The notes beneath the pieces are model-generated. The model did not search any database. It saw nothing but the letters and a program-made list of their open reading frames with translations, and was not told where the DNA came from. Shown piece by piece: positions 12,894 through 49,860 of a stretch of DNA of 64,000 nucleotides (positions are counted from its first letter, which is position 1; each line of letters starts with the position of its first letter). The translations under genes and the position numbers were made by a program. The stretch lies in the NCBI GenBank assembly GCA_028716525.1, contig JAQUPQ010000017.1, forward strand, positions 1 to 64,000, given 5' to 3'. The DNA is from Terriglobia bacterium (GTDB taxonomy: Bacteria > Acidobacteriota > Terriglobia > JAIQFV01).

Positions 12894-14807
12894 TCATTTG
12901 AGGACCGTCACATTCAGCCATTTCTGCCCGGTCAACATGAGATTCAACGGCGCGCCTTCAAAGATGGCCAAGGTGGAGGTTCGCAGGATGGTCTGATTGA
13001 CCCCGGAGGTGCGGTCCGCCGAAAGAATGGCTTGCAAGGAGGGCGGCACCGCCGGATAGGTTTCACCGAATAAGGCTGCGGATTCTTCCATCCGGGAAAC
13101 CCGCACATACAGCCGGTTATTCTGCCGGGTGTGATTGACTGTGCGAATCAATTGCGCCACATCTTTCGGAAAAAAAGTAGGCCGTGTTTCCCGATTTTCA
13201 ATCTGCGACAACGTTCCACCATCGCTGACACTCACTTGCAGGGGTCCGGGAGTCACATTTTCAGGAATCGTTACCGGAATGGAAGTCTCCACTTCCTCAC
13301 CATTGGTTTTGCGCAACATCGCATGCACTTCCATTTTGGCGCCTGCCCGGACTTCCCGCTCGTCCGCCCAAATTCTCTCCAAACTGGCCTGGCGCTTCTC
13401 GTCCCAGGAAGTCACGTCCAGTTCAATGGAATCAATCTGGACGTCCTTGAGCCCGCTTTGCATGAGGAAATTGACGGGGTTGGCCACCAGCAAGGAAGCA
13501 ATCGCCGAGGCATTGGCATCACCGGAAACAAAATTCTCGATCTTGACCTGCTGCTTTCCTTTCAAGGCGATGGTTCCCTGCAATTCCAGGGTGGATTCAC
13601 CGAGCGTCCGTTCACTGGAACTCAATGCCGAGAAGACTGTGAAATTCACCATCAAGGGCGTCAAAAAGCGATCATTCACCGTCTCAAAATGAAAAACTTT
13701 CCCCTCATTGCGGCTGGACCGCAAACGGATCGTGACGGGAATCATCTTGGGCGCTAGGCCGATCTCTCCGCTGATGCCGCTCACACGATCTTGTTTGATG
13801 GTACCGATCAATTCCGTCGGCACGGAAAGTTCCGTGGAACTCATGACGCTGGGCAGCACCGTGATCAGCCGGGTCTTGGTCATAGGAAGCTCGGTGGGGC
13901 CGCTTTGTAAGAAGGCGTGGCCGAAGGCATAGATGCGATCGCCATCCCGGTACGTCACCTTGCCGGAGGCCGTCGCACCGAACACGCCTCGCACCAACTG
14001 GGCCCCTACGCCCGAGCCGGGCTCGATGTCAGCGGCTTCGGAAAGCGTGTTGTCAACAACGTCGCTCCCGCCCATGGCGCCCCCCATCACGGGTGTCAAT
14101 CCCAAAGCGCGGAACTGGGGACGGAAGTATTCCACCGCAGCCGGAGAAAAACCGGAAAGCAACAGCGGTGTGTCAATGGGTTTCAATTCCGACGGATTCG
14201 GGAAAGAGTCGCCTACCGCGCCCGGTTTCTCCAATTCCACCCGGGGTCGAAACGACGGCACCAAGGCCCACAATTGACTTTGCAACGATTGACTGGGGTC
14301 GTAGGAAGCTCGCGATGCCGCCGGACTCACCGTGCCGCCCGGTGCCGGAACGTCCTCCGCCGCCGAACTGCCGGCCACCATGTTTTGGATCGGGGTGATG
14401 GCAGCGATGGCCTCTTTGGAGAATGGAAAAGCGTACGCGACCGCCCCTAACAATTTTCCTTCAACAAAAACGGGGCTTCCACTCATCCCTGCGAAAACAC
14501 CCGTCTCGGCCAGGGGCCCTCCCGAGAGTTTGGCAAACACGGCGTTTTGCTTGGGAAGAAAGTTCTCAACCACACCCAGGATCTCGACATTGAAATCGGA
14601 AACGGTATCCCCCTGGAAGACCGTGTGTCCCACGCCCTTCATCCCCGGCCGCAAATCTTTGAGGTCAAAGAAAGGTACGGCCGCTTGCTTGGCGGGATGC
14701 CCAGAGGGGGGCGCTGCATCCCCCGGAGCAAGCCGGCTGCGGGCTTGCGCCAGCGCCAAGGTTCCCCACAACATCACCAACAACCACACCAGATATCGTA
14801 ACTTCAT
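12894..14807 (-). CDS. SpoIVB-type (peptidase family S55) secreted serine peptidase
   Basis: 637 residues with a signal peptide (LVWLLVMLWGTLALAQA). FFDLKDLRPGMKGVGHTVFQ, then GVFAGMSGSPVFVEGKLLGA and FPFSKEAIAAITPIQNM are the S55 signature; the Ser in GMSGSP is the expected nucleophile. S55 is best known from the sporulation protease SpoIVB, but members also occur in non-sporulating Gram-negatives. The C-terminal 300 residues have no recognised domain. It could process an envelope substrate, and the sigma/anti-sigma pair in the same gene run is one candidate (inference). Confidence 0.85.
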   Translation of the reverse strand: MKLRYLVWLLVMLWGTLALAQARSRLAPGDAAPPSGHPAKQAAVPFFDLKDLRPGMKGVGHTVFQGDTVSDFNVEILGVVENFLPKQNAVFAKLSGGPLAETGVFAGMSGSPVFVEGKLLGAVAYAFPFSKEAIAAITPIQNMVAGSSAAEDVPAPGGTVSPAASRASYDPSQSLQSQLWALVPSFRPRVELEKPGAVGDSFPNPSELKPIDTPLLLSGFSPAAVEYFRPQFRALGLTPVMGGAMGGSDVVDNTLSEAADIEPGSGVGAQLVRGVFGATASGKVTYRDGDRIYAFGHAFLQSGPTELPMTKTRLITVLPSVMSSTELSVPTELIGTIKQDRVSGISGEIGLAPKMIPVTIRLRSSRNEGKVFHFETVNDRFLTPLMVNFTVFSALSSSERTLGESTLELQGTIALKGKQQVKIENFVSGDANASAIASLLVANPVNFLMQSGLKDVQIDSIELDVTSWDEKRQASLERIWADEREVRAGAKMEVHAMLRKTNGEEVETSIPVTIPENVTPGPLQVSVSDGGTLSQIENRETRPTFFPKDVAQLIRTVNHTRQNNRLYVRVSRMEESAALFGETYPAVPPSLQAILSADRTSGVNQTILRTSTLAIFEGAPLNLMLTGQKWLNVTVLK

Positions 14808-24265: not shown

Positions 24266-24792
24266 AGTCCGGCGCCTCGGGACCATCGCCGCCCCCTATT
24301 TCCATTTCTAGACCAGCAATCACAAGGACCCGACGCGGTTTTTTCATCATCGTCTCCGTCCAACTAACTCTTTTTATTGCGGAGGGTCTATGAACGGAGG
24401 CCAGTGCGACAATTTCGTGTCTCGTTTATCAAATATATTTATTCACCGAGCCTACTCAAGCGAATGGTAAATCACGGCATCGGAATCAAGATTAACGAAC
24501 ACGCGGTTTGAATGGCACCCGGCACGGCTACAGCCCACTATTTTCATTTAGTCTGGGAGACTGTGACATTATCTTAATGATTTTAAGGTCTCATATCCAA
24601 AGTGCGCTGAGCCCAAAACAATCACTAATGCTTTGGGGCTGATTTGACGATAACCAGTAATAGTGGTTGCACTTGGAGGCGGAGGCACGACAAACCCACT
24701 CGCTCGAAATTCCAGGAAGAGTGCATAACGGAGCCAAAGGCTTCATGTGAGGGCATGGGCGCGGGATTCACGGCCGTGATTTGGTGAGGAAT
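24266..24792. other. Gene-poor spacer with one possible 26-residue ORF
   Basis: About 530 bases between the sulfur operon and the hybrid kinase. The only coding hint is ATG 24390 to TAA 24470 on the plus strand, 26 residues (MNGGQCDNFVSRL...), with a strong GGAGGG at 24381-24386. The peptide has no recognisable feature. No RNA gene or riboswitch was identified. Confidence 0.35.
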
Positions 24793-27700
24793 ATGAATAG
24801 AACAGTTCAAAAGAAAATATCAAAAGCTAAAAGGAATCCCACCGCGACAGAAGCCGGAGGACAAAGGCCCGGAGCAAAGCACGGGGATTTGTTTGGTGCG
24901 GCGTCCAGTCATCTGGAATCTGAAAATAAATATCGATTGTTATTTGAAAGTAACCCCGTCCCCATGTGGGTTTTCAATCTTGAATCTCTCCGCTTTCTCG
25001 CAGTCAATGATGCCGCAGTTCACAACTATGGGTATTCCCGAGAAGAATTCCTGACGATGACGATCCGGGAAATTCGCCCCCGCGAAGACACCCCCGCGCT
25101 TCTGGAAGTGATTCGGACTTTGAAGGACGGGTTCCATCCGCCCCAACCCTGGCGACATCGCAGAAAGGATGGGTCCGTCTTTGACGTCGAAATCCGTTCC
25201 CATACCCTCACTTACGAAGGCAGACGCGCCGACCTGGTTATGGCGACAGATGTTACAGAACGAAGGCGCGCCCAAGAGACGCTCGCCCGATCGGAGCAAA
25301 AATATCGCAGCCTCTTCGAATGTGCGGATGATGCCATCTTGATTTTCGATCCGGACACGGAAGTCATCCTCGAAGCCAATGAAAAAGCCTGCCGGATGTA
25401 TGGATTTTCAAGAACCGAATTGCTGGGCATGAGCTTGAAGGAGCTGACACTCAACGTCCCTCGAGGCAGAAAACAGGTCGCCACCCTTTTGGAACATGGC
25501 CTGTGCCGGAATTTTGACACCGTCCATCTCAACAAGACAAGAATACCTATTCACATCCTTGCAAACGCCTCGGTCATCGACTATCAGGGCAGGAAAGCCA
25601 TACTCAGTATTCACCGGGATATCACCGAGAGAATGCAAGCGGTGCAGGCGCTTAAGGAAAGTGAAGATCGTTACCGCGACCTGGTTGAAAACAGTCAGGA
25701 ACTGATTTGCACTCACGACTTGGACGGAAAGGTTCTCACCGTAAACCTGGCTACGGCAAGGAGCCTGGCCTGTGAACCGGGCGAAATTGTCGGGCACAAC
25801 ATTCGGGAATTTTTGGCGCCGGAAATGCAGGAGGGATTTGACGACTACTTGGCCACCATTCGACGGGATGGAAAGGCTCACGGACTCATGCTCGTGAAGA
25901 ACTTTGCCGGCGAAAAACGCGTCTGGGAATATTCCAACACCCTCCGCACGGAGGGCGTCGATGTTCCTGTAGTCCGTGCGTTGGCCCGTGACGTGACCGA
26001 GCGGAAACGAGCCGAGCGATCGGCCAGAATGGAAAATCGGCGGAATGAGATCATCCTTCGGACGGCCTTGGATGGATTCCTTATTATGGATTCCCAGGGC
26101 CAGATCTTAGAAGCCAATCCTGCCTTCTGCCAGATGTTCGGGTACACCCCAGAGGAACTGCGCACCATGAGGGTGAGCGACCTCGCGGCACAGCGGACCT
26201 TCACCGAAGTCGAAAATCTAATCCACGAAATCAGAGCCAGGGGCTTTGCCACATTTGAAACAACAGGTCACTGCAAGGAGGGAGGATTCATCGACGTCGA
26301 GGTGAAGTCCAACACGATACAGCTTGATGGGAACGAGCTGCTTTTTAGCTCCGTCCGGGACATCACCGAGCGCAAACGCAATGAGGAGCAACTGCGTGAA
26401 TTAAGTGAATTTGATAATCAGATCATATCGAGCGCCCAGGAGGGAATTGTGGTCTACGACCGCGATCTCCGATATCGGGTGTGGAATCCCTACATGGAGG
26501 AGTTGAGCGGTCTCCGAGCCGAAGAGGTAATTGGAAGACATCCCTTAGAAATACTGCCCTTCCTTAAGGAACAGGGCGTTTATGATTTGCTGCAGAGGGC
26601 CCTGGCGGGTCAAACGGTCGTGGCGCCAGACATTCCTCAGCCTCCAATCGGACCCAAAGGACCGGGTTGGAGCTCGGCCCGATTCTCACCCTTGCGGAAC
26701 ACCAAGGGAGAGATTATCGGCGTCGTGGGAATAATCCGGGACATCACCGAAAGCAAAAACGCGGAGGACGAATTGCAGCGTTCACGCTATATGCTTCAAT
26801 CGGTCCTGGATACCATTCCGCAACGAGTATTCTGGAAGGATTTGAACTCCAACTATGTGGGCTGCAATCAACCCTTCGCTCTCGATGCGGGCGAGGAGGA
26901 TTCCAAAGCAATTGTTGGAAAGAGCGATTTCGAGCTGGCCTGGAAAGAAAGAGCGGCTCTGTATCGGGCGGATGACCATGAAGTGATTTCAACGGACAAA
27001 TCCAAAATCCACTTTGAGGAGCGCGTAAGTCATGCTAACGGGCGGGACTTGTGGGTGAGAACCAGCAAGGTCCCATTGCATGATATCCAAGGCCAAGTAA
27101 TCGGCATTCTGGGCACTTATGAAGACATCACCGAGCTGAAACGATCGGAAATGGAGCGCCAAGCCATCTATGAAGTGACCGAAGGAATCAATCAAACAGC
27201 CAACCTCAATGATTTGCTTCACCTGGTCCACGAGGCGCTTCGAAGAGTCGTGTACACCGAGAATATCTTCATTGCACTTTACAACAAGAGGGCCGACCAC
27301 TTTGAATTTCCATATTGGGTGGATCAGTTCGATCCTCCGCCGAATCCCGCCCAGGTGGGCAAGAGCCGGACCGCTTACGTTTTCCGGACAGGACAACCCC
27401 TCTTTTTAACCCCTGAGATTTTCAGAGATCTAAATCTCAAGGGTGAAGTGGAGCAAATAGGAACCCCATCGGAAGTGTGGATCGGCGTCCCACTCAAGAC
27501 GCCGGTAGAAACCATCGGAGTGCTTGTCGTTCAGCACTATTCCGACGCCAATGCCTATACCAAGAGGGACCTGGAATTTCTGACTTCTGTCGGGAACCAA
27601 ATTGCCGTCGCTATTGAGCGCAAACGCGCCGAAGAGGCCATCCACCTTCAAACCACGCGGTTTCAATCCCTCTTTGAGAACTCTCCCATCCCCATCGCCA

Positions 27701-29196
27701 TGATGGATCATTCGGATCTCATCATTCAAGTCAACAAGGCTTTCGAAAGGACCTTTGGTTATATGAGGGCCGAAGTTCTGGGACGCCCCATCAATGATGT
27801 TGTCGCCCCGCCCGAAAAGAAAGACGAAGCCGCGGACCTAAGCGCCCAGACTCTAGGAGGTCACGCGATTCAATTGGAGACAGTTCGGCGATGCAAAGAC
27901 GGAACTTTGGTTCCCGTGCAGATCTTCGGTGTTCCCATGTTTTCAGATACGGGAACTATCGGACTGTTTGCCCTGTACATGGACCTGACGGAATCGAAGT
28001 TTCTTTCCGAGCAGCTTCGACAAGCCCAAAAAATGGAAGCAGTAGGTCGGCTGGCGGGAGGAATCGCCCATGATTTCAACAACCTCCTGACCGCCATCCT
28101 GGGCTATGGCCAATTAACCTTGGGGTCTCTCGATGGACATGATCCCTTAAGGAAAAACGTTCAGGAGATTATCAAGGCAGGCGAGCGGGCGGCGGGTTTG
28201 ACCAATCAGTTGTTGGCCTTCAGCCGCAAGCAGGTTCTCCAGCCGGTGCCATTAAATCTCAATGCCGTCGTTTCCGACATGGACAAGATGCTTCGCCGAT
28301 TGATCGGTGAAGATGTCGAACTCATCCTTAAACTGAATGCCAAAATAGGATCGGTTCGCGCCGATGTCGGCCAGATGGGTCAAATCATCATGAACCTTGC
28401 CATCAACTCGAGAGACGCAATGCCGCATGGCGGGAAGCTCATTATTGAAACATCCAATACCACCTTTGACGAGGTCTACACCCGACTTCATCCTGAAGCG
28501 ATCAAAGGGTCTTACGTAATGTTGGCCATCACTGATACCGGAACCGGGATGGATTCGGACACCATATCGCACATGTTTGAACCCTTCTTTACAACCAAGG
28601 GGCTGGGCAAAGGAACCGGTCTTGGATTGTCCACTGTTTACGGAATCATCAAGCAGAGCGATGGCTACGTCTATCCCTATAGCGAGGTCGGAAGGGGAAC
28701 GACCTTCAAAATCTATCTTCCCAGAGTGGACGGCAAGCTGGACGCGCCCATTCAGGGTGAACAAAACGCGGATGAACACCCTGCCACGGAAACCATCCTT
28801 GTGGTAGAGGACGAAATGGGCGTTCGGAGCCTCATTCAAAGTGTTTTGGCGGCCAAGGGATATACCGTTCTTGAGGCCGATGACGGCATTGAGGCCCTCA
28901 AATTGAATGAGAATCACCCCGGGACCATCGATTTGTTGCTGACGGATCTGGTGATGCCCCGGATGAGTGGTCGAGAATTGGCGGAACACCTGTCGCCGAA
29001 AAGACCCGAGATGAAGGTTCTCTTCATGTCCGGCTATACTGCCGACAGCGTCGTTTATACCGGAGCTTTAGAATCAACCCTGAACTTCATTCAGAAGCCA
29101 TTCACCACCAAGGAATTGAGTCAGAAAATCACCCACGTCCTTCACAATGACGTACCCGATGCGGGGCCCGCCGAAGAATTGGTCGCGAGGAATTGA
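24793..29196 (+). CDS. Multi-PAS/GAF hybrid histidine kinase with receiver domain
   Basis: About 1467 residues, no membrane segment, so probably cytoplasmic. Six PAS domains lie at roughly 43-157, 163-283, 290-403, 413-526, 536-652 and 660-780, most ending in DITER-like motifs; a GAF domain at about 786-942; a seventh PAS at about 952-1070; the kinase core with GGIAHDFNNLLTAILGYG (His near 1091); an ATPase domain with GTGLGLSTVYGII; and a receiver from about 1335 (VVEDE, phosphoacceptor Asp in LLLTDLVMP). No output gene is adjacent, so it may pass phosphate to a distant partner. ATG 24793 is chosen; TTG 24781 is possible. Confidence 0.9.
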   Translation: MNRTVQKKISKAKRNPTATEAGGQRPGAKHGDLFGAASSHLESENKYRLLFESNPVPMWVFNLESLRFLAVNDAAVHNYGYSREEFLTMTIREIRPREDTPALLEVIRTLKDGFHPPQPWRHRRKDGSVFDVEIRSHTLTYEGRRADLVMATDVTERRRAQETLARSEQKYRSLFECADDAILIFDPDTEVILEANEKACRMYGFSRTELLGMSLKELTLNVPRGRKQVATLLEHGLCRNFDTVHLNKTRIPIHILANASVIDYQGRKAILSIHRDITERMQAVQALKESEDRYRDLVENSQELICTHDLDGKVLTVNLATARSLACEPGEIVGHNIREFLAPEMQEGFDDYLATIRRDGKAHGLMLVKNFAGEKRVWEYSNTLRTEGVDVPVVRALARDVTERKRAERSARMENRRNEIILRTALDGFLIMDSQGQILEANPAFCQMFGYTPEELRTMRVSDLAAQRTFTEVENLIHEIRARGFATFETTGHCKEGGFIDVEVKSNTIQLDGNELLFSSVRDITERKRNEEQLRELSEFDNQIISSAQEGIVVYDRDLRYRVWNPYMEELSGLRAEEVIGRHPLEILPFLKEQGVYDLLQRALAGQTVVAPDIPQPPIGPKGPGWSSARFSPLRNTKGEIIGVVGIIRDITESKNAEDELQRSRYMLQSVLDTIPQRVFWKDLNSNYVGCNQPFALDAGEEDSKAIVGKSDFELAWKERAALYRADDHEVISTDKSKIHFEERVSHANGRDLWVRTSKVPLHDIQGQVIGILGTYEDITELKRSEMERQAIYEVTEGINQTANLNDLLHLVHEALRRVVYTENIFIALYNKRADHFEFPYWVDQFDPPPNPAQVGKSRTAYVFRTGQPLFLTPEIFRDLNLKGEVEQIGTPSEVWIGVPLKTPVETIGVLVVQHYSDANAYTKRDLEFLTSVGNQIAVAIERKRAEEAIHLQTTRFQSLFENSPIPIAMMDHSDLIIQVNKAFERTFGYMRAEVLGRPINDVVAPPEKKDEAADLSAQTLGGHAIQLETVRRCKDGTLVPVQIFGVPMFSDTGTIGLFALYMDLTESKFLSEQLRQAQKMEAVGRLAGGIAHDFNNLLTAILGYGQLTLGSLDGHDPLRKNVQEIIKAGERAAGLTNQLLAFSRKQVLQPVPLNLNAVVSDMDKMLRRLIGEDVELILKLNAKIGSVRADVGQMGQIIMNLAINSRDAMPHGGKLIIETSNTTFDEVYTRLHPEAIKGSYVMLAITDTGTGMDSDTISHMFEPFFTTKGLGKGTGLGLSTVYGIIKQSDGYVYPYSEVGRGTTFKIYLPRVDGKLDAPIQGEQNADEHPATETILVVEDEMGVRSLIQSVLAAKGYTVLEADDGIEALKLNENHPGTIDLLLTDLVMPRMSGRELAEHLSPKRPEMKVLFMSGYTADSVVYTGALESTLNFIQKPFTTKELSQKITHVLHNDVPDAGPAEELVARN

Positions 29197-41145: not shown

Positions 41146-44100
41146 TCAGTGATTTTGGGGAATGGACGAACCGCCCGGCGCGAACAGAACCGGCGCCATC
41201 AGAAACAATTCGCTGGAGGAGACAGTCTTTGTCGATGGTGCAGCGGTCTCTCCGGGCTCTTCTGCATTGGCCTTGGTTATCCTGGATTCGATCGGGATGC
41301 GCAGCACCTGTCCCACCACCAAGCGATTCATGTCGGGAATGATCAACTTGTTGGCGGCGTATATGATCGACCACTTTTCTTTGGTGTGATAATACTTGGT
41401 CGAAATGGTCCCCAAGGTTTCTCCCGATTGCACCTGATGCAGGACGGCATCTCCGCCGATGACTTCTGAAATGGTTCGTGTTTGACGTGGAGCATTCCCC
41501 TTCGATGGGGGCGCGGAAGCGCTTGTCAGGGCCGCCTTCACGTTGGGTGCAGCCGGTTTCTTCTCCTGCCGGCTGGTTTGAACTCTCTTGGGTTCCATAG
41601 GAATCCGGAGTTTTTGTCCGGCGTGAGGCTGTCCTGACGCATCCAACAGTCCCTTGTTCGCATTGTAAATCAACGGCCACAGCTTCTCGGAATGGAAGTA
41701 CCGAACCGCCAATGATTGCAGCGTCTCCCCGGTAACAACGGTATGGATCAGGATGTGGGGCGCGCCATTCAAAGAGGCCGTAGGCTTCACCTTGCTCTTG
41801 CCCGTCAACGAAAACTCGTCTTTCGTGTCTGCTTTGGTCTCACGGCTTTGCGCCCGGACTCCATTGTTTCCGGCAGCGGAATCGTTCTGGTCCGGAGTCA
41901 CGTCCATCTTAATTAAACGAGGAAGCGTTTGGGTGGCCACCAGAACACGGCGGTTGGGGCGCGGTTCAAGTTCCACCACGAATTTCAATCCCCTCTTTTT
42001 TTCTCCCGGCGCCAGTTGAACCACCAATCGCGGCTCCGTTGCCACTTTCGAGAACTCCGGCATCGTTCCGGGATCGATTCGTACGCGATACTCGCCTCTG
42101 GGGATGTTGTTGAAGGTGAATTCGCCATCCTCGTCGGTAAACGTTACCTTGTAGGTCTCATTCAAGACGATGATGATATTGGCGCCCGGCAGTTCATGTT
42201 GGGTATTGCCCAAGGCCGCATCCGCTTGATCAATCAACACCACTTTTCCTGAAATCTTTCCCAATTGCAGAAGCGGGAAAGAAGCTTCACTTGTCGTCCG
42301 CTTGGATACATTGAGTCGAACTTTAGGATGAAGGCCGGCATCGTAAACGGCGGGCAAGGACAACATATCCAGCCCGACGGAATGAAGCCCCACGGGTACA
42401 TTCTTAAATTCATAATGACCCATCGCATTGGTAGTCATCTTTTCCCGGCCATCCAATGAAACGACCACGCCCGATACACCGTCCTTTTTCTCGTCCAGCT
42501 TGCCATCGCCATCCAAATCGTTGAACACCACACCGGCAATGTTGCCGAACTCCCGGGGAAGACGAGGCATGGCAGCCGACCCCATTGAATTCGGAGCAAA
42601 TTCCGGAGGCCGTTGTCCCCACTTGAAAGTCTTGAAGATGCGAATTTGAAATTGGTAGCGGTTGAATTGCTGCATGAGCAAGGTGTTGGCCACATCCGTC
42701 AAATTGGCCGGCGTCAAGGTCAAGCTATCCAGCAGGCTCAGCATGTTGGTGGTGCGATTGTATTGTCCGTTCACCGAGAGTTGGATGCCCGCGGGGAGGC
42801 TCCAATTCACACCGCTGTTAAACGACGTGGTGCTGAAACTGGAGGTCCGGAGGATCTCCAAAGGCTGCTGCCAGTTCAATTCCGCGTACAAAGACAGACT
42901 CGGCCTCACGGTCCAACTCAATCCCGCGTTTCCGGTAAGGCTCGATTTGAATTGCGCTTTCCCCGTTTGAGATTCCCGCAGGTCTCCCACCGTGACATAA
43001 GCGGTGGAACCGTTCTTCCAACTCTTGCGAATTTCCAGTTCCATGCGTTGCGTATTATTGCGTTCCAGCCCGTTACTGAAATCGGCGGCACGATTTTGGT
43101 CGAACCGTGCTTCCAGTCGCCACGATCCCAAGGAGTGCGAATAATCCAGTTCCCAGGAACGGTTATGGGTCAGCAGGGTGGTGGGGCTTCCGGGGAGCGA
43201 CTGGGCGTTCGAATCGCCGTATCTGAAATTAAGTGTTCCCTGTGGGAAGAGTTGATACCGCCCACCCACGAACGTGGTGTCGATGTTCAACGAAGCCGTC
43301 AAGCGGGAATCCAGGAGGTTATTGTGATAGCGATTGAAGCTCCCGTAAACCGCAAACTTCCGGCTGATTTGATAATTGACGTTGCTGAAGAATCCTTCCC
43401 GATCTCCAATATTGAAATTCGTCAATGGAAAGAGATCCGGGCTCAGGCGCATCCAGCTGACTTCGGCGCTTCCCCGTACCGTCTTGTATTTGGCACCGGC
43501 CAAATAGGAGAAATCCAGGCCTTGAGGCTGCGGCAAGGATGCATCACCGGAGTACCGGGAAAAAGAGAGCTGGCCCAGCAACTGAATATTCTTGGTCAAC
43601 TGATAAATGGCGTCGCTTGAGGCAATGCTGGTGGATTGAGGAACGGACCGCCCCAGGGACTGATCGGCGTTGTTTGTTTGAATCAAGCTGCTACCGATTT
43701 TCAACTTGGAGGACACCTGAAACTGGCCCCGGATACCGAACATATCCTGCTGGGTCAGTTGCAAGGATTCCCCAAAAAGTCCCGTCAGCGATGCCACCCG
43801 TCCGCCGAAGGCCGTAACGGACCATCGATCGGTTGACGCCGTGATTTTGGCCCCCCGCAGGTTGGCGAAAGGATTGAACAGAGAGCTCAAATGGAAATCC
43901 AGGTTATACGCGTTCAGGGGATGATCACCCACCAGAAAATCGAACTTCACGTTGCGCCAACGGTAGTCGGACAGCTCTACCATGCCGCGACCGGCATGAA
44001 CTGAATTGTCGGAGTTGACGACGTCGAAAGAGGTCTTCAGGACCCCCCAGTTGGGAAGATATTCATAGCTGTCAAGCCGGACGTCGAAGTTGGACAAGGA

Positions 44101-44313
44101 AGGAACTGCCAACGAGAAGAGCGGATTATTCAACAGGGTGTTACTGAGGGTGGTGTTGTTGTTGTGATATTGGAAGGTAACACTGACCCCACCCGCCTCT
44201 TGTCCCCAGGTTGGAACCGAAAAAAGGAAGCACAATCCTCCAAGCAGCAGGGCCAACTTCTGGCTTCGAGCTGTCTCAAGACTTACTCCTTTTTTCCCTC
44301 GGGTCTTTGACAT
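41146..44313 (-). CDS. Outer-membrane beta-barrel with Sdr-like and two LysM domains
   Basis: About 1055 residues. A signal peptide (LALLLGGLCFLFSVPTWGQ) is followed by about 560 residues of alternating strands with aromatic girdles, as in an outer-membrane barrel. Residues 590-670 have FNDLDGDGKLDEKKDGVSGV, an SdrD-B/carboxypeptidase-regulatory module, followed by a second similar module (LPGANIIIVLN...EDGEFTFNNIPRGEY). Two LysM domains end the protein (HTVVTGETLQSLAVRYFHSE; HQVQSGETLGTISTKYYHTK) and should hold peptidoglycan. Last gene of the pilin/chaperone operon, where an usher would be expected; no PapC/FimD signature was recognised. ATG 44313 is preferred over TTG 44325. Confidence 0.8.
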   Translation of the reverse strand: MSKTRGKKGVSLETARSQKLALLLGGLCFLFSVPTWGQEAGGVSVTFQYHNNNTTLSNTLLNNPLFSLAVPSLSNFDVRLDSYEYLPNWGVLKTSFDVVNSDNSVHAGRGMVELSDYRWRNVKFDFLVGDHPLNAYNLDFHLSSLFNPFANLRGAKITASTDRWSVTAFGGRVASLTGLFGESLQLTQQDMFGIRGQFQVSSKLKIGSSLIQTNNADQSLGRSVPQSTSIASSDAIYQLTKNIQLLGQLSFSRYSGDASLPQPQGLDFSYLAGAKYKTVRGSAEVSWMRLSPDLFPLTNFNIGDREGFFSNVNYQISRKFAVYGSFNRYHNNLLDSRLTASLNIDTTFVGGRYQLFPQGTLNFRYGDSNAQSLPGSPTTLLTHNRSWELDYSHSLGSWRLEARFDQNRAADFSNGLERNNTQRMELEIRKSWKNGSTAYVTVGDLRESQTGKAQFKSSLTGNAGLSWTVRPSLSLYAELNWQQPLEILRTSSFSTTSFNSGVNWSLPAGIQLSVNGQYNRTTNMLSLLDSLTLTPANLTDVANTLLMQQFNRYQFQIRIFKTFKWGQRPPEFAPNSMGSAAMPRLPREFGNIAGVVFNDLDGDGKLDEKKDGVSGVVVSLDGREKMTTNAMGHYEFKNVPVGLHSVGLDMLSLPAVYDAGLHPKVRLNVSKRTTSEASFPLLQLGKISGKVVLIDQADAALGNTQHELPGANIIIVLNETYKVTFTDEDGEFTFNNIPRGEYRVRIDPGTMPEFSKVATEPRLVVQLAPGEKKRGLKFVVELEPRPNRRVLVATQTLPRLIKMDVTPDQNDSAAGNNGVRAQSRETKADTKDEFSLTGKSKVKPTASLNGAPHILIHTVVTGETLQSLAVRYFHSEKLWPLIYNANKGLLDASGQPHAGQKLRIPMEPKRVQTSRQEKKPAAPNVKAALTSASAPPSKGNAPRQTRTISEVIGGDAVLHQVQSGETLGTISTKYYHTKEKWSIIYAANKLIIPDMNRLVVGQVLRIPIESRITKANAEEPGETAAPSTKTVSSSELFLMAPVLFAPGGSSIPQNH

Positions 44314-44351
44314 GGTGGCGCTCAATCAATTCGACGTTCCTCACAATGATG

Positions 44352-45209
44352 TTAGGGCTGCACTTGGGTGACGGATTCAAGGAGCTCCTTCAAACCCACG
44401 TCCAGACTGCTGACGATGGAAAACTTCTGAGCGGGCAAATCTTTTTTCAAAGGCAAGAAAATGGTTCGTTCCGATTGGGGAAGAACCACGGCATCATTGA
44501 TGGGAAGAGTTTCCACCTCCGTACCTTGGCCATCCACAATCTTGCATTCCCCTTTGAAACGGAAGTAGGAGTTTCCGGAATTCTTCAAAGTAATCTGCAC
44601 GCCCAGCCGGCTGGGATTGTTGGGATCAAGGATCACCTGCTGAGCCGTCACCGAGGCCTGGGTCGCCGGCGCACCCACGCGATCGTAGATAATGGCGCCA
44701 ATGCGGGCGTTGAGATAGGCCATGTGAATATCGTGTGGCTGTGTGATATTGGGAACAGATTCAATAAGGATCGCCGTCCGATAGCCTCCATCGGGAGTTC
44801 CCATCGGCACGGTAAACGTGTAACGAATGATCTGCTGGCTGTGGGGGCCCAAATCGAATTCCGCGGGGTTGACTTCGATCCAGTCGCTCATGGAAAACTG
44901 GGGTACTCTTCCCCGCTTCACAAACATGGGATCGCCACCGGGAGTCAGGTACCAGTCGGCCACTGTCACGCGCATGTGCACCGGCTCGGCGGATTCATTC
45001 TCGACGGTGATCCCGTCCGTCTTGGTCTGACCAGCCGCAACTTGATGCTCCGATCGGATCGGAAATGCTCCCAGAGAAACATCCGCTCGAATGGCCTCCG
45101 TGCCTGCCATGATCAAACCCAACGCTATCAGGCAGGCCAGTATCCAAAACATGATCTCTTTCTGCCATCGGGCTTCCCATTCTGCGGTGCGATTCATTGG
45201 CTCTTTCAT
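44352..45209 (-). CDS. PapD-like periplasmic chaperone
   Basis: About 285 residues. A signal or anchor helix (IMFWILACLIALGLIMAG) precedes an Ig-like chaperone domain: GQTKTDGITVENESAEPVHM, then MSDWIEVNPAEFDLGPHSQQ, which matches the SxW..V.P..F.L.P pattern of fimbrial chaperones. A second Ig-like domain follows (VQITLKNSGNSYFRFKGECK). It should cap pilin subunits by donor-strand complementation. AGGAGG nine bases upstream sets ATG 45209; ATG 45227 would place that site inside the gene. It sits between the pilin genes and the barrel gene. Confidence 0.82.
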   Translation of the reverse strand: MKEPMNRTAEWEARWQKEIMFWILACLIALGLIMAGTEAIRADVSLGAFPIRSEHQVAAGQTKTDGITVENESAEPVHMRVTVADWYLTPGGDPMFVKRGRVPQFSMSDWIEVNPAEFDLGPHSQQIIRYTFTVPMGTPDGGYRTAILIESVPNITQPHDIHMAYLNARIGAIIYDRVGAPATQASVTAQQVILDPNNPSRLGVQITLKNSGNSYFRFKGECKIVDGQGTEVETLPINDAVVLPQSERTIFLPLKKDLPAQKFSIVSSLDVGLKELLESVTQVQP

Positions 45210-45258
45210 TTTCAACTTCCTCCTCATGGAACAAATTGGTACAGACCGGCTAACGCCT

Positions 45259-45777
45259 TTACGGCGAAGTAAAAGTAATCACAAACGATTGAGTGTATGA
45301 AGCAGAGTCGTAGGACCAGCTGTTAACCATCGAAAATGTAGCGGTGCATTGGAATCCCGGGCCGGTTTGGGTGTTGGCGACTCCGTTGATGAGGTTCACC
45401 GGTGTGGTTTTGCTCATCGTTCCGTTGTCACAAATACAGGTGTGACCGGAAGGACAATTACCGCTGGATTGCACTCCCGTCCAACTGACATTGCTGATCG
45501 GAATTGAGCTGGTTGCGGAATTCAAGTCCCCATTCGCCATTCCGTGGACAGACCAGGCCTGAGTTGAGGAAGCACCAGCAACAGCGATGCCGATGAGCAC
45601 AGTCGAATTCGCAGTGATCGAGGGATTAGTGGTAGGGTTGGCATCCGCAAAACTGATGGAAGTCGGACTGATGGTGAGGCTGCCTCCGATCCCGGCGAAG
45701 GAAACGGAACAAACAGATCCGAGGAGGGCGATCCCCAACATCGCCCCTGTCATCCGGTTTTTGATCCTGTTTCGCAT
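45259..45777 (-). CDS. Pilin-like secreted protein, Cys-containing paralogue
   Basis: 172 residues with a signal peptide (LGIALLGSVCSVSFA). It shares LTISPTSISFADANPTTNPS, NSTV, IPISNVSWTG and the C-terminal SWSYDSASYTQSFVITFT with the two paralogues encoded upstream. It differs in having four Cys residues in the middle (NCPSGHTCICDNGTM and GFQC), suggesting a disulfide-stabilised tip or adaptor subunit (inference). Preceding AGG motifs support ATG 45777. Third of three tandem pilin-like genes. Confidence 0.75.
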   Translation of the reverse strand: MRNRIKNRMTGAMLGIALLGSVCSVSFAGIGGSLTISPTSISFADANPTTNPSITANSTVLIGIAVAGASSTQAWSVHGMANGDLNSATSSIPISNVSWTGVQSSGNCPSGHTCICDNGTMSKTTPVNLINGVANTQTGPGFQCTATFSMVNSWSYDSASYTQSFVITFTSP

Positions 45778-45919
45778 GGCCTCAACCTCAACGTATCTCT
45801 CAGATTCATTCCATCCCCATCCGACCACTGCTCTTTCCAGGCCGATGGTTTGAAAAACGTGCAGCGGAAAAGAAGCCGAGCCACCCTTCCGCTGCCTCAA
45901 CTCCATCGCCCGGAAAGAA

Positions 45920-46432
45920 TTAAGGCGCAGTCAGGGTGTAGGTCACCGATTGCGTGTAACTGCCGGTGTTGTAGGACCAGCTGTTGGCGAACGCAAAGGT
46001 GTAGGTGCCGCTGAACGATCCGCTGCCCGCTGAGAATGTGGCGGCGCTTTGAGCGGTTGTCTTGTTCATGGTACCGGCAATAAACGGTGCCCCTGAAGCC
46101 GTCCACGTCACGTTACTGACCGGAATCGTGTCGCTGCCTGAGGTCAAATCGCCTCCGGCGAGAGCGGTCAGCGTCGCAGTGCTGGCCGAACCCGTGCGCA
46201 CGTCCGCTGTAACCGCCACGGTCGAATTCGCGGCCACCGAAGGTGATGTGGTCGGACTGGCGTCGGCAAAGCTGATGGTTGTAGGAGACAACGTCAACTC
46301 CGCTCGCGCCGAGATCGTGGCGTTAATGGTCAGGCTCTGCGTGGCCGAGGCAGCATACAACGCGGTGGCGCTACCCCACACCAACAGCCCGACGACCAGG
46401 CAACCCAAGAAAAGCTTTGATGTGTTTTTCAT
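45920..46432 (-). CDS. Pilin-like secreted protein (paralogue 2)
   Basis: 170 residues, same length as paralogue 1 and roughly three quarters identical by eye. After the signal peptide (LVVGLLVWGSATALYAA) come ELTLSPTTISFADASPTTSP, VAANSTVAVTADVRT, NVTWTASGAPFIAGTMNKTT and the C-terminal SYTQSVTYTLTAP. The all-beta pattern, the N-terminal Thr/Ser-rich strand (SATQSLTINATISARA) and the conserved last strand resemble chaperone-assembled subunits, in which the N-terminal strand completes the neighbouring subunit. Confidence 0.8.
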   Translation of the reverse strand: MKNTSKLFLGCLVVGLLVWGSATALYAASATQSLTINATISARAELTLSPTTISFADASPTTSPSVAANSTVAVTADVRTGSASTATLTALAGGDLTSGSDTIPVSNVTWTASGAPFIAGTMNKTTAQSAATFSAGSGSFSGTYTFAFANSWSYNTGSYTQSVTYTLTAP

Positions 46433-46521
46433 TTCATCTTCTCCCCATTAGAATTAAATTACGTTTCGATTTCTGACGGAGGATTGCGGCAACGCCATCT
46501 CCCGTCACTACGGATCCACCC

Positions 46522-47034
46522 TCAAGGAGCGGTCAAGGTATAGGTCACGGTTTGCGAATAACTGCCCGTGTTATACGACCAACTGTTCGCCATCGAGAAC
46601 GTGTAGGTCCCCGAGTACGAACCGCTGCCTGCCGAAAAAGTGGCAGCACTTTGAGCCGTGGTTTTGTTCATCGTTCCTGCGATGAACGGGCTTGGAGTGG
46701 CCGTCCAAGTTACATTGCTGATCGGAATCGTGTTGCTGCCCGAAACCAGATCGCCGTTAGCGAGCGCGGTCAGCGTCGCGGTGCTGGTTGAAGCTGTGCG
46801 CACGTTCGCGGTAACGGCGACCGTGCTGTTCGCTGCAACCGTCGGCGATGAGGTCGGACTGGCGTCCGGAAATGTAATCGACGTTGGAGACAACGTCAGT
46901 TCCGCTCTCGATGAGACAGTGGCATTGATGGTCAACGTTGCCGTAGTGCTGCCGGCAAACGCGGCCATCCCGTTGAACAAAATCGCCAGCGCAACGATCC
47001 CACAGCCAAGAACCAAACTGTGTGGCCTTTTCAT
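46522..47034 (-). CDS. Pilin-like secreted protein (paralogue 1)
   Basis: 170 residues and the first gene of the operon. Signal peptide GIVALAILFNGMAAFA, then TLTINATVSSRAELTLSPTS, TVAANSTVAVTANVRT, IPISNVTWTATPSPFIAGTM and SYSQTVTYTLTAP. It has no Cys in the mature part. Its Thr/Ser/Ala richness and regular strand spacing fit a polymerising surface subunit. Start ATG 47034 with AAGGA upstream; the longer frame to 47082 lacks support. Confidence 0.8.
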   Translation of the reverse strand: MKRPHSLVLGCGIVALAILFNGMAAFAGSTTATLTINATVSSRAELTLSPTSITFPDASPTSSPTVAANSTVAVTANVRTASTSTATLTALANGDLVSGSNTIPISNVTWTATPSPFIAGTMNKTTAQSAATFSAGSGSYSGTYTFSMANSWSYNTGSYSQTVTYTLTAP

Positions 47035-47744: not shown

Positions 47745-48707
47745 ATGCGATTTGAGTTCTACCACCCTGGTATTAACGTGGCCAGGACCCTCATGGTCGA
47801 CGGGGTCGCCGACAGCCGCTTGAATATGAGCCACTGGCCGGGAAATCGAACTCCGGAACACCTCAAAGCCGACACCTCCACCGAAATCTGCCTGAATTTG
47901 GCGGCAGACCCCTATGCAGACCGGTTATTCGAAAACATCGAAATCGTCAGCAACAACCATTTTGATACCGACGGCCTGCTCTCCTCGTGGACGGCCCTCC
48001 ATCCCAAAGAAGCGCTGTTTCACCGGGAATTTCTGGTGGCAGCGGCTCAAGCCGGTGACTTTGGATGGTATACAACACCCCAAGCCGTAAAATTCGACTT
48101 GGTCGTGAGCGGCTTCGAAGGTTCTGACCGCTCTCCGCTGCACAATCGGTTGGCCGGGTTAAATGACACGCAGAAGTATCAGCTTCTTTATGAACATCTC
48201 TTGGGAGAAATGCCCGGGCTAATGGAAAATTTTGAGAGCCGTTACCGGGATTTATGGACGGAGGAATTCAAGGCTCTTGAACAGGCCCGTTCGGCTTTGA
48301 ACAACGGCGCCGGCCAATGGCGGCATCATCCCGCCGAAGGACTGGCTGTGTTTCAAACCGATAAAGAGTTTCCCCTCACCTCACGCTTTAACCATGCTTC
48401 ATCCGACCGACTTCTCACCCTTCTCAACTCCCCGGACGGCTTGCGGTGCGAGTTTCACTTCGACGTTATCACATGGTTTGAAACGGTTCATGTTCAAAAG
48501 AAACCCCGCCTGGATCTGACGCCGCTCGCAAGTCAGTTGAACGCATTAGAAAAAAGAGGGGAGGTCACCTGGAAAGCGGATCCTCTCGAGGAGCTCTATC
48601 CCTGCCTATCCCTTTGCGACGGAAATGGAAACTCAGCTAACACTTCCCTTCCCGCCGAATCCATCGAAAATGCTTTCGTCTCTTTCTTCCGTGCCGCCGA
48701 GAGATGA
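47745..48707 (+). CDS. Uncharacterised protein with a DHH-like N-terminal motif
   Basis: 320 residues, soluble. MRFEFYHPGINVARTLMVDG and SNNHFDTDGLLSSWTALHPK resemble the DxDG/NHxDxDG metal motif of DHH phosphoesterases, but the rest of the protein does not match a family I know with confidence. The middle is helical (LLGEMPGLMENFESRYRDLW). AAGGAAG precedes the ATG. It is transcribed alone, divergent from the pilin operon. Function unknown; a phosphodiesterase-like role is only a suggestion. Confidence 0.7.
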   Translation: MRFEFYHPGINVARTLMVDGVADSRLNMSHWPGNRTPEHLKADTSTEICLNLAADPYADRLFENIEIVSNNHFDTDGLLSSWTALHPKEALFHREFLVAAAQAGDFGWYTTPQAVKFDLVVSGFEGSDRSPLHNRLAGLNDTQKYQLLYEHLLGEMPGLMENFESRYRDLWTEEFKALEQARSALNNGAGQWRHHPAEGLAVFQTDKEFPLTSRFNHASSDRLLTLLNSPDGLRCEFHFDVITWFETVHVQKKPRLDLTPLASQLNALEKRGEVTWKADPLEELYPCLSLCDGNGNSANTSLPAESIENAFVSFFRAAER

Positions 48708-48760
48708 GATCGATTGGAGTGGTTTCCCTCCTGTCATTCATCTCCAAAGATAGGAAAGGC

Positions 48761-48878
48761 CTCACCGCCGAGGCGGGAACACATTCTTTTGGCTTCCTTC
48801 GTCTGCGAATAGAGCTGTCCTTCGCCGCGCCATTGAACCTCTGCGCTGGCTCGGCGAACTCTGCGCCTCGGCGGTGAG
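48761..48878. repeat. CTCACCGCCGAGGCG inverted pair
   Basis: 48761-48775 (CTCACCGCCGAGGCG) and 48864-48878 are exact reverse complements over 15 bases, enclosing 88 bases. A related but unpaired stretch (GCGTCTCCGCGGTGAACGGC) is seen near 35943-35962. It lies in the gap between the DHH-like gene and mqnD. Confidence 0.65.
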
Positions 48879-49005
48879 TAGGTTTTCGTGCTCCAACTGA
48901 GGCAAAAAATCCGTCTAATGATATAATCGGCTGCCCCCTTCGTCCTGATTGCGGGTCAATTTAATGAGGTGGGGGTCTGTACACAGGACACTTCAAGAGG
49001 ATTGA

Positions 49006-49860
49006 ATGACTGAAACAAACACTTCAAATGGGATCGATATCAAGCTGGCACACAGCCCGGATTCCGACGATGCCTTTATGTTTTATGCGCTGGCAACCGA
49101 AAAAATCCCGACAGGGAACCTCCATTTTCATCATACCTTGTGTGACATTGAAACACTCAACAACAAAGCGTTGGAGGGGTTTTACGAAGTCACCGCCATT
49201 TCTTTTCATGCTTATCCGATGATCGCGGACCAATACGCCCTGTTGCCGCACGGATCTTCAATGGGTTCCAAGTACGGACCCATGGTGATTGCCTCAAAAC
49301 CTTTTCCGGCCAATGAAATCAAAGGCAAGAAGATTGCCATTCCGGGTCTCTTGACGACCGCTTATCTTTCACTGCGGTTGTTTGAGCCTGATTTTGAACC
49401 CGTCATCGTGCCGTTTGATAAGATCGTCGACTCCGTGAAACATGGATTGTTTGACGGCGGTTTGATCATTCACGAGGGCCAGCTGACCTATGCCCAGGAA
49501 GGTCTCTACAAGATAATCGATCTCGGAGAATGGTGGGACGAGCAGTTTCATCTGCCGCTTCCACTGGGTGGAAACGCCATTCGAAAAGACCTGGGGCCGG
49601 AAACTATCTCCGAAGTTTCCCGACTGTTGAAGGCCTCCATCCAATACGGTCTGGAGCATCGCGAAGAAGCATTGGAATACGCCATGCATTTCGCCCGCGA
49701 CTTGAATCGCGACTTGGCCGACCAGTTTGTCGCCATGTATGTGAATGAACTGACGCTGGATTATGGGCCGGAAGGCCGCCGCGCCGTTCAACTGCTGCTG
49801 GACCAGGGATACGAGAAGAAGATTATTCCCAGGAAGGTGACGGTGGAATTTGTGGGGTGA
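49006..49860 (+). CDS. mqnD: 1,4-dihydroxy-6-naphthoate synthase MqnD (futalosine pathway)
   Basis: 284 residues. [20 protein letters not shown] at the N-terminus and [20 protein letters not shown] are the MqnD signature; [13 protein letters not shown] and [18 protein letters not shown] complete the periplasmic-binding-protein-like fold. It converts cyclic de-hypoxanthine futalosine to 1,4-dihydroxy-6-naphthoate in menaquinone synthesis. No other mqn genes are in the window. AGAGGA precedes the ATG. Confidence 0.92.

Follow-up and report, generated by a model that had tools for sequence, protein, structure and literature searches.

A putative divergent chaperone-usher operon with a minimal usher-like barrel in a Terriglobia bacterium

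The window analyzed here is a stretch of 64,000 nucleotides from a Terriglobia bacterium of the phylum Acidobacteriota (contig JAQUPQ010000017.1, positions 1 to 64,000). It carries on its minus strand five open reading frames (ORFs) separated by short gaps, namely three tandem pilin-like genes, a chaperone, and a large outer-membrane barrel protein (P0001), a gene set suggestive of a surface fibre operon. The barrel and chaperone genes are 26 bp apart and the chaperone and pilin genes 31 bp apart. The start of the third pilin-like gene was re-assigned to codon 44, and P0001 has 1059 codons counted from a TTG or 1055 from the first ATG. A preliminary description made from the sequence alone had already proposed this arrangement on the minus strand, with a barrel of 1055 residues, and our examination of the ORFs confirms it. 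The features of the locus are the following:

46522-47034 (ORF to 47082), minus strand: pilin-like subunit 1 (P0005), with a signal peptide, Gly at -14, Tyr at -12, and an extension at the N-terminus that resembles a donor strand
45920-46432, minus strand: pilin-like subunit 2 (P0004), with an unpaired N-terminal extension in its AlphaFold2 (AF2) model (predicted local distance difference test, pLDDT, 89.7) and PDB matches mostly to chaperone-usher pilins
45259-45777 (ORF to 45906), minus strand: pilin-like subunit 3 (P0003), the putative tip, with a mature N-terminus devoid of donor-strand extension
44352-45227, minus strand: two-domain periplasmic chaperone (P0002) of the PapD superfamily, WxLIP-like, with Pro121 and Arg135 conserved in 42/42 relatives
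41146-44325, minus strand: usher-like outer-membrane protein (P0001), with a signal peptide, a barrel, two periplasmic beta-sandwich modules, a linker, and two LysM domains
42625-44193, minus strand: barrel region of P0001 (residues ~45-567), with 26 predicted strands and inter-strand loops of at most ~18 residues
41926-42552, minus strand: the two beta-sandwich modules of P0001 (residues ~592-800; SdrD_B and CarboxypepD_reg), which by position and profile correspond to the usher C-terminal domains CTD1 and CTD2
41599-41751, minus strand: LysM domain 1 of P0001 (residues ~859-909), from Pfam
41293-41439, minus strand: LysM domain 2 of P0001 (residues 963-1011), from Pfam

Pfam searches retrieved in P0001 the two LysM stretches (E = 3.4e-14) together with SdrD_B (residues 596-652) and CarboxypepD_reg (residues 710-759), in agreement with the modules first described. 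The usher family PF00577 had no Pfam match in P0001 or in the A2 members, so that the barrel indeed bears no recognizable usher signature at this level, as had been noted. None of the window proteins passed a family cut-off in NCBIfam, and the pilins yielded neither a convincing Pfam match nor, as queries against PDB sequences, anything useful. A remote search of the whole genome (96.5% complete) recovered no other PF00577 usher and no PF00345 chaperone.

The association between chaperone and barrel is recurrent. Among 60 representative loci, mostly located via the chaperone alone and mostly from Acidobacteriota, a same-strand barrel gene adjoins the chaperone in 57, and two of the three loci where it does not (L097 and L149) run into the end of a contig. 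The barrel is found in 40 of the 42 closest loci, and so are pilins (40/42). In distant loci, too, genes for small exported proteins precede the chaperone, and several of these proteins have Gly at -14. This recurrence of the module goes far beyond chance. At the Pfam level, none of the three findings that the preliminary description had named as counter-evidence turned up, namely a confident usher hit in the barrel, a separate usher gene in the genome, or a lack of conserved co-occurrence. At the genome level, the barrel used as query matched 13 of the 297 genomes of the phylum, and the chaperone profile 53 of 396, a count that takes in canonical chaperones; the same profile matched 29/299 genomes in the window's own class and 26/142 in another class. 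Scanning contigs with a single barrel gave no match, and scanning them with the chaperone alignment did. Matching records with a name include many Candidatus Saccharicenans and Aminicenantes genomes, other Acidobacteria, and one UBP2 bacterium. Several of these operons have additional components. Two differing chaperone homologs surround the pilins or the barrel in some of them (L116:6655-9248 and L098:6908-11269), and several Aminicenantia genomes (L024-L029) possess an extra small subunit preceding the operon, lacking Gly at -14, and a response-regulator-like protein of ~450 amino acids with a C-terminal Fis-type helix-turn-helix, encoded ~2.5 kb ahead of the chaperone gene and possibly a dedicated regulator.

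The small proteins encoded upstream of the chaperone resemble subunits of chaperone-usher pili. Residues 22-42 of pilin 2, the first 20 of the mature protein, remain unpaired in its confident AF2 model, and a Foldseek search of this model against the PDB had CfaB as its top match (E = 9.5e-4). The top 50 matches are mostly chaperone-usher pilins (CfaB, the PapG pilin domain, FimG, Caf1, FimF, CsuA/B, and PapA), with some glycosidases and integrins and not a single WxL protein. A Gly residue located 14 positions from the C-terminus marks chaperone-usher pilins, and we found it in 64 of the 78 pilins (99/127 in an extended set), together with a Tyr at -12 in 63/78. Pilins 1 and 2 carry an extension of alternating hydrophobic residues (TQSLTINATISA...). 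The mature N-terminus of pilin 3 (GIGGSLTISPT...) begins almost at the core and is devoid of it, a feature expected in a tip subunit since the tip has no subunit ahead to complement. Many relatives likewise seem to have one subunit without extension, usually the one encoded nearest the barrel, as far as can be told with a crude rule for the cleavage site. The extension-less subunit, pilin 3 in the window, is therefore probably the tip of the fibre, judging from its N-terminal sequence.

Profile comparisons place the chaperone in the same superfamily as those of known pili. Its profile aligned over both domains (hhalign, 98.3%, E = 1.5e-14) with canonical chaperones from E. coli and Acidobacteriota, and Arg58 aligned in profile-profile comparison with Arg8 of FimC. 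A single proline has been described as the sole invariant residue of the chaperone-usher superfamily (PMC4654587); the residue aligned with it, Pro121, is present in all 42 relatives and in three canonical chaperones, and Arg135 is equally constant (42/42 relatives). In one locus (L022:10754-12211), the chaperone homolog possesses a C-terminal AMIN domain, which in other proteins binds peptidoglycan or polysaccharides.

Ushers combine a 24-stranded barrel, an inserted plug, an N-terminal chaperone-docking domain of ~125 residues, and two C-terminal beta-sandwich domains. In all the well-studied ushers that we know of, the N-terminal domain receives the subunits and the plug closes the pore. 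The AF2 model of P0001 (pLDDT 77.7, predicted template modeling score 0.57, from an alignment of 21 sequences) contains a barrel followed by two beta-sandwich modules, with strands at positions 556-749, and displays neither an N-terminal domain nor a plug, because the first strand starts at residue ~45, directly behind the signal peptide, and all inter-strand inserts are at most ~18 residues long. Of the strict usher features, P0001 lacks three (PF00577, N-terminal domain, and plug) and has one, the two C-terminal domains. Searched against the PDB with Foldseek, the model nevertheless had FimD and PapC structures at all of ranks 1-10 (E = 1.5e-17 to 5e-13), followed by the next match at 9e-10, and its C-terminal modules aligned with usher CTD1-CTD2 in hhalign (E = 6.4e-5 for the close group of relatives and 2.8e-9 for the distant group).

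The distant relatives connect this barrel with the canonical ushers. Barrels of the close and distant groups aligned with each other at 100% (E = 1.7e-52, 649 columns), and a distant subgroup holds a plug-like insert (L068, residues 284-309; also L074, L076, and L080) in addition to an N-terminal domain. These plug-bearing relatives aligned in turn over 624 columns with canonical ushers (97.9%, E = 3.4e-13), the insert falling on the FimD plug. Through this profile bridge, canonical ushers, plug-bearing relatives, and the P0001 barrel form a series, and P0001 is most likely a highly diverged usher, beyond detection by PF00577, whose modeled structure has no docking domain and no plug. The proposal that an unrelated new barrel had replaced the usher is not supported by these comparisons, nor is the view of the SdrD-B modules as non-usher features, as they correspond to usher-like C-terminal domains. 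Other N-terminal regions occur among the relatives. Two barrels (L030:7288-9837 and L031:6255-9413) have a Cu_amine_oxidN1-like domain where the usher N-terminal domain would be, and the distant plug-bearing barrels L070 and L078 resemble them in that region. Another barrel homolog (L079:6872-9778) has T2SS-T3SS_pil_N, a secretin N-terminal domain, at its start and a SPOR domain at its end.

Taken together, we consider, with a probability of about 0.78, that the operon encodes a divergent chaperone-usher pathway with a minimal usher as pore; the original idea of a chaperone-dependent fibre operon is thus supported by the pilin, chaperone, and barrel matches. In such a pathway, the Sec system would export three pilins with incomplete immunoglobulin-like folds, which the two-domain chaperone would cap in the periplasm by donating the missing strand. 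The pilins would then be passed to the barrel, acting as usher, and donor-strand exchange would polymerize them into a thin surface fibre whose tip would be pilin 3, the subunit unable to donate a strand. The minimal usher would consist of a large pore and two periplasmic C-terminal domains, with no docking domain and no plug. Lacking the N-terminal docking domain, it would recruit the chaperone-subunit complexes by its C-terminal domains, and its pore may be gated by loops, by these same domains, or by the fibre itself.

Several observations weigh against this interpretation. The fibre is a prediction from genes and models, and the confidence of the barrel model is moderate. The model has 26 strands instead of the 24 of ushers, and its TM-scores to ushers are low (0.32-0.50). 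Barrel-only usher structures rank no better than other barrels (3ohn at 2.8e-8 versus the Mtr complex at 1.9e-8), so that the high ranking of ushers needs the barrel and the C-terminal domains together. The transthyretin-like fold of these domains is widespread, and the close-group modules compared directly with those of ushers reach a probability of only 64%. The pilins lack the penultimate Tyr (their C-termini are, for example, TLTAP and TLSKV), and the best PDB sequence match of the chaperone is to WxLIP rather than to PapD.

The operon could instead be an ordinary archaic chaperone-usher operon, too diverged for Pfam and working by the same mechanism. The plug-bearing distant relatives, which are essentially ushers overlooked by PF00577, speak for this explanation, as does the conventional nature of all the remaining parts. 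Nevertheless, the AF2 model leaves no room in the close group for an N-terminal domain or a plug. A plug-like motif occurs in 4 of 15 distant members and in 1 of 29 close ones, the latter probably by chance, although the motif was a crude regular expression, so insensitive that it overlooks even the canonical usher of genome G029, and lends only weak support. In addition, two relatives (G029 and G001) hold canonical chaperone-usher operons with PF00577 ushers at distinct loci, so that both kinds occur side by side in a genome as systems of their own. We therefore regard an ordinary operon as unlikely. In G029, the canonical operon (contig C75; L032 and L081) encodes spore-coat-U-like pilins and is separated by ~12 kb from the chaperone/barrel pair of the new kind.

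An explanation that we find more doubtful is a diderm version of the WxL systems, in which a WxLIP-like protein would hold small WxL-like proteins at the wall and the LysM barrel would tether the outer membrane to peptidoglycan, forming an adhesive complex and not an exported polymer. It draws on the affinities of the chaperone, which had been called PapD-type at the outset. The profile comparisons uphold that name, but direct searches do not, since PF00345 (PapD_N) did not match the window chaperone and WxLIP_PGBD (PF06030) matched it weakly (E = 0.0016, under the Pfam cut-off). By sequence profile, its closest solved structure is the Gram-positive EfmWxLIP1, with a fit over both domains (E = 3e-6) better than that of CsuC (0.069). 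The close chaperones tested (n = 12) match WxLIP_PGBD in 10 cases and PapD_N in two, whereas 11 of the 19 distant ones match PapD_N (best E = 4e-14) and three WxLIP, so that the family sits between both; we found no literature linking WxLIP and PapD-type chaperones. The LysM domains of the window barrel, and the SPOR or AMIN domains of some relatives, would also suit a wall-bound complex. Against it, the small proteins had no match to the WxL Pfam models and the modeled one resembles chaperone-usher pilins, most barrels lack any wall-binding domain, and neither the usher-like C-terminal domains nor the plug-bearing relatives would be explained. A pure WxL system was rejected on the grounds of the pilin fold and of the PapD_N matches of distant chaperones.

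Wall-binding domains are, in fact, sporadic in this family of barrels. LysM pairs are restricted, among the loci examined, to the window barrel and two genomes from the window's own family (L147 and L148); SPOR domains terminate three other barrels (L031, L065, and L079), and most have none. The presence of LysM in one bacterial family, SPOR elsewhere, and mostly nothing makes wall anchoring a repeated option and not the core of the system, so that the LysM anchor is not its hallmark. The position of both domain types, C-terminal behind the usher-like modules, fits a periplasmic tail, and in the window's bacterial family the two LysM domains would tie the pore to peptidoglycan. A purely passive LysM anchor was discarded as LysM is missing from most relatives. 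An OmpA-like barrel that serves, via LysM, as outer-membrane anchor or stabilizer of fibres exported by another route, and not as their secretion pore, would agree with the LysM domains, the absence of docking domain and plug from the model, and the moderate confidence of the latter, but is highly improbable given that the genome has no other usher, that no gene other than that of the barrel accompanies the chaperone so constantly (57/60 loci), that most barrels have no wall-binding domain, and that the size of P0001 and its barrel-CTD-CTD order match those of ushers.

If the minimal-usher pathway is correct, a natural usher devoid of docking domain and plug would reveal the essential parts of the machine and the way in which the C-terminal domains can manage subunit handover by themselves. 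It would also extend chaperone-usher-type fibres to a large phylum of soil and subsurface bacteria, where they have been overlooked by annotation and hitherto remained largely undescribed in the Acidobacteriota literature that we searched; our searches on WxL and chaperone-usher systems, on SdrD-type barrels and ushers, and on Acidobacteria and chaperone-usher systems retrieved no description of this one. More tentatively, and at slightly less than even odds, it may represent an undescribed class of chaperone-usher systems, widespread in Acidobacteriota, with a platform that has no docking domain or plug and relies on other means of recruitment and gating, and with a WxLIP-like chaperone that marks a common origin of WxL complexes and pilus chaperones. 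This possible evolutionary link between Gram-positive WxL complexes and pilus chaperones is testable.

Elsewhere in the window, a DUF6687 protein is encoded beside a menaquinone biosynthesis protein (VitK2_biosynth) at 47745-49860 on the plus strand, divergent from the fibre operon. A hybrid histidine kinase of 1471 residues with multiple PAS domains, GAF, and one receiver domain is found at 24781-29196 (plus strand), and a 637-residue protein matching the SpoIVB peptidase S55, unexpected in a diderm outside spore formers, at 12894-14807 (minus strand).

Compared with the classical chaperone-usher systems (FimC/FimD/FimA and PapD/PapC), the window operon has the same organization, pilins with signal peptides, Gly at -14, and an N-terminal extension, a two-domain chaperone that retains the invariant Pro and an Arg matching FimC Arg8 in the alignment, and a barrel followed by two C-terminal beta-sandwich domains. 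It differs from them in the absence of N-terminal domain and plug, the 26 predicted strands instead of 24, the LysM tail, the pilins without penultimate Tyr, and the lack of PF00577, PF00345, or fimbrial Pfam matches. With the archaic and alternative systems (CsuC/CsuD, EcpB, and CfaA/CfaB) it shares the pilin fold, nearest to CfaB, a chaperone whose nearest chaperone-usher sequence is CsuC, and a wide phylogenetic spread. Chaperones of those systems have a hallmark Arg89 that anchors the subunit by its C-terminus; the window protein and the four distant ones checked have Arg at this position, but most of the close group has His (27/42). The WxL/WxLIP (DUF916-DUF3324) clusters of Gram-positive bacteria resemble it in the chaperone, whose profile fits EfmWxLIP1, and in the small secreted beta proteins within the operon, whereas the window operon has no WxL-domain proteins and instead an outer-membrane barrel, a diderm host, and pilins that in fold searches resemble those of chaperone-usher systems. 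Finally, inverse autotransporters (intimin/invasin) also unite LysM and an outer-membrane barrel in one protein. In them, LysM is N-terminal and the immunoglobulin domains are the exported passengers; P0001 differs in that its LysM domains are C-terminal, after the periplasmic C-terminal domains, and that separate pilins and a chaperone exist.

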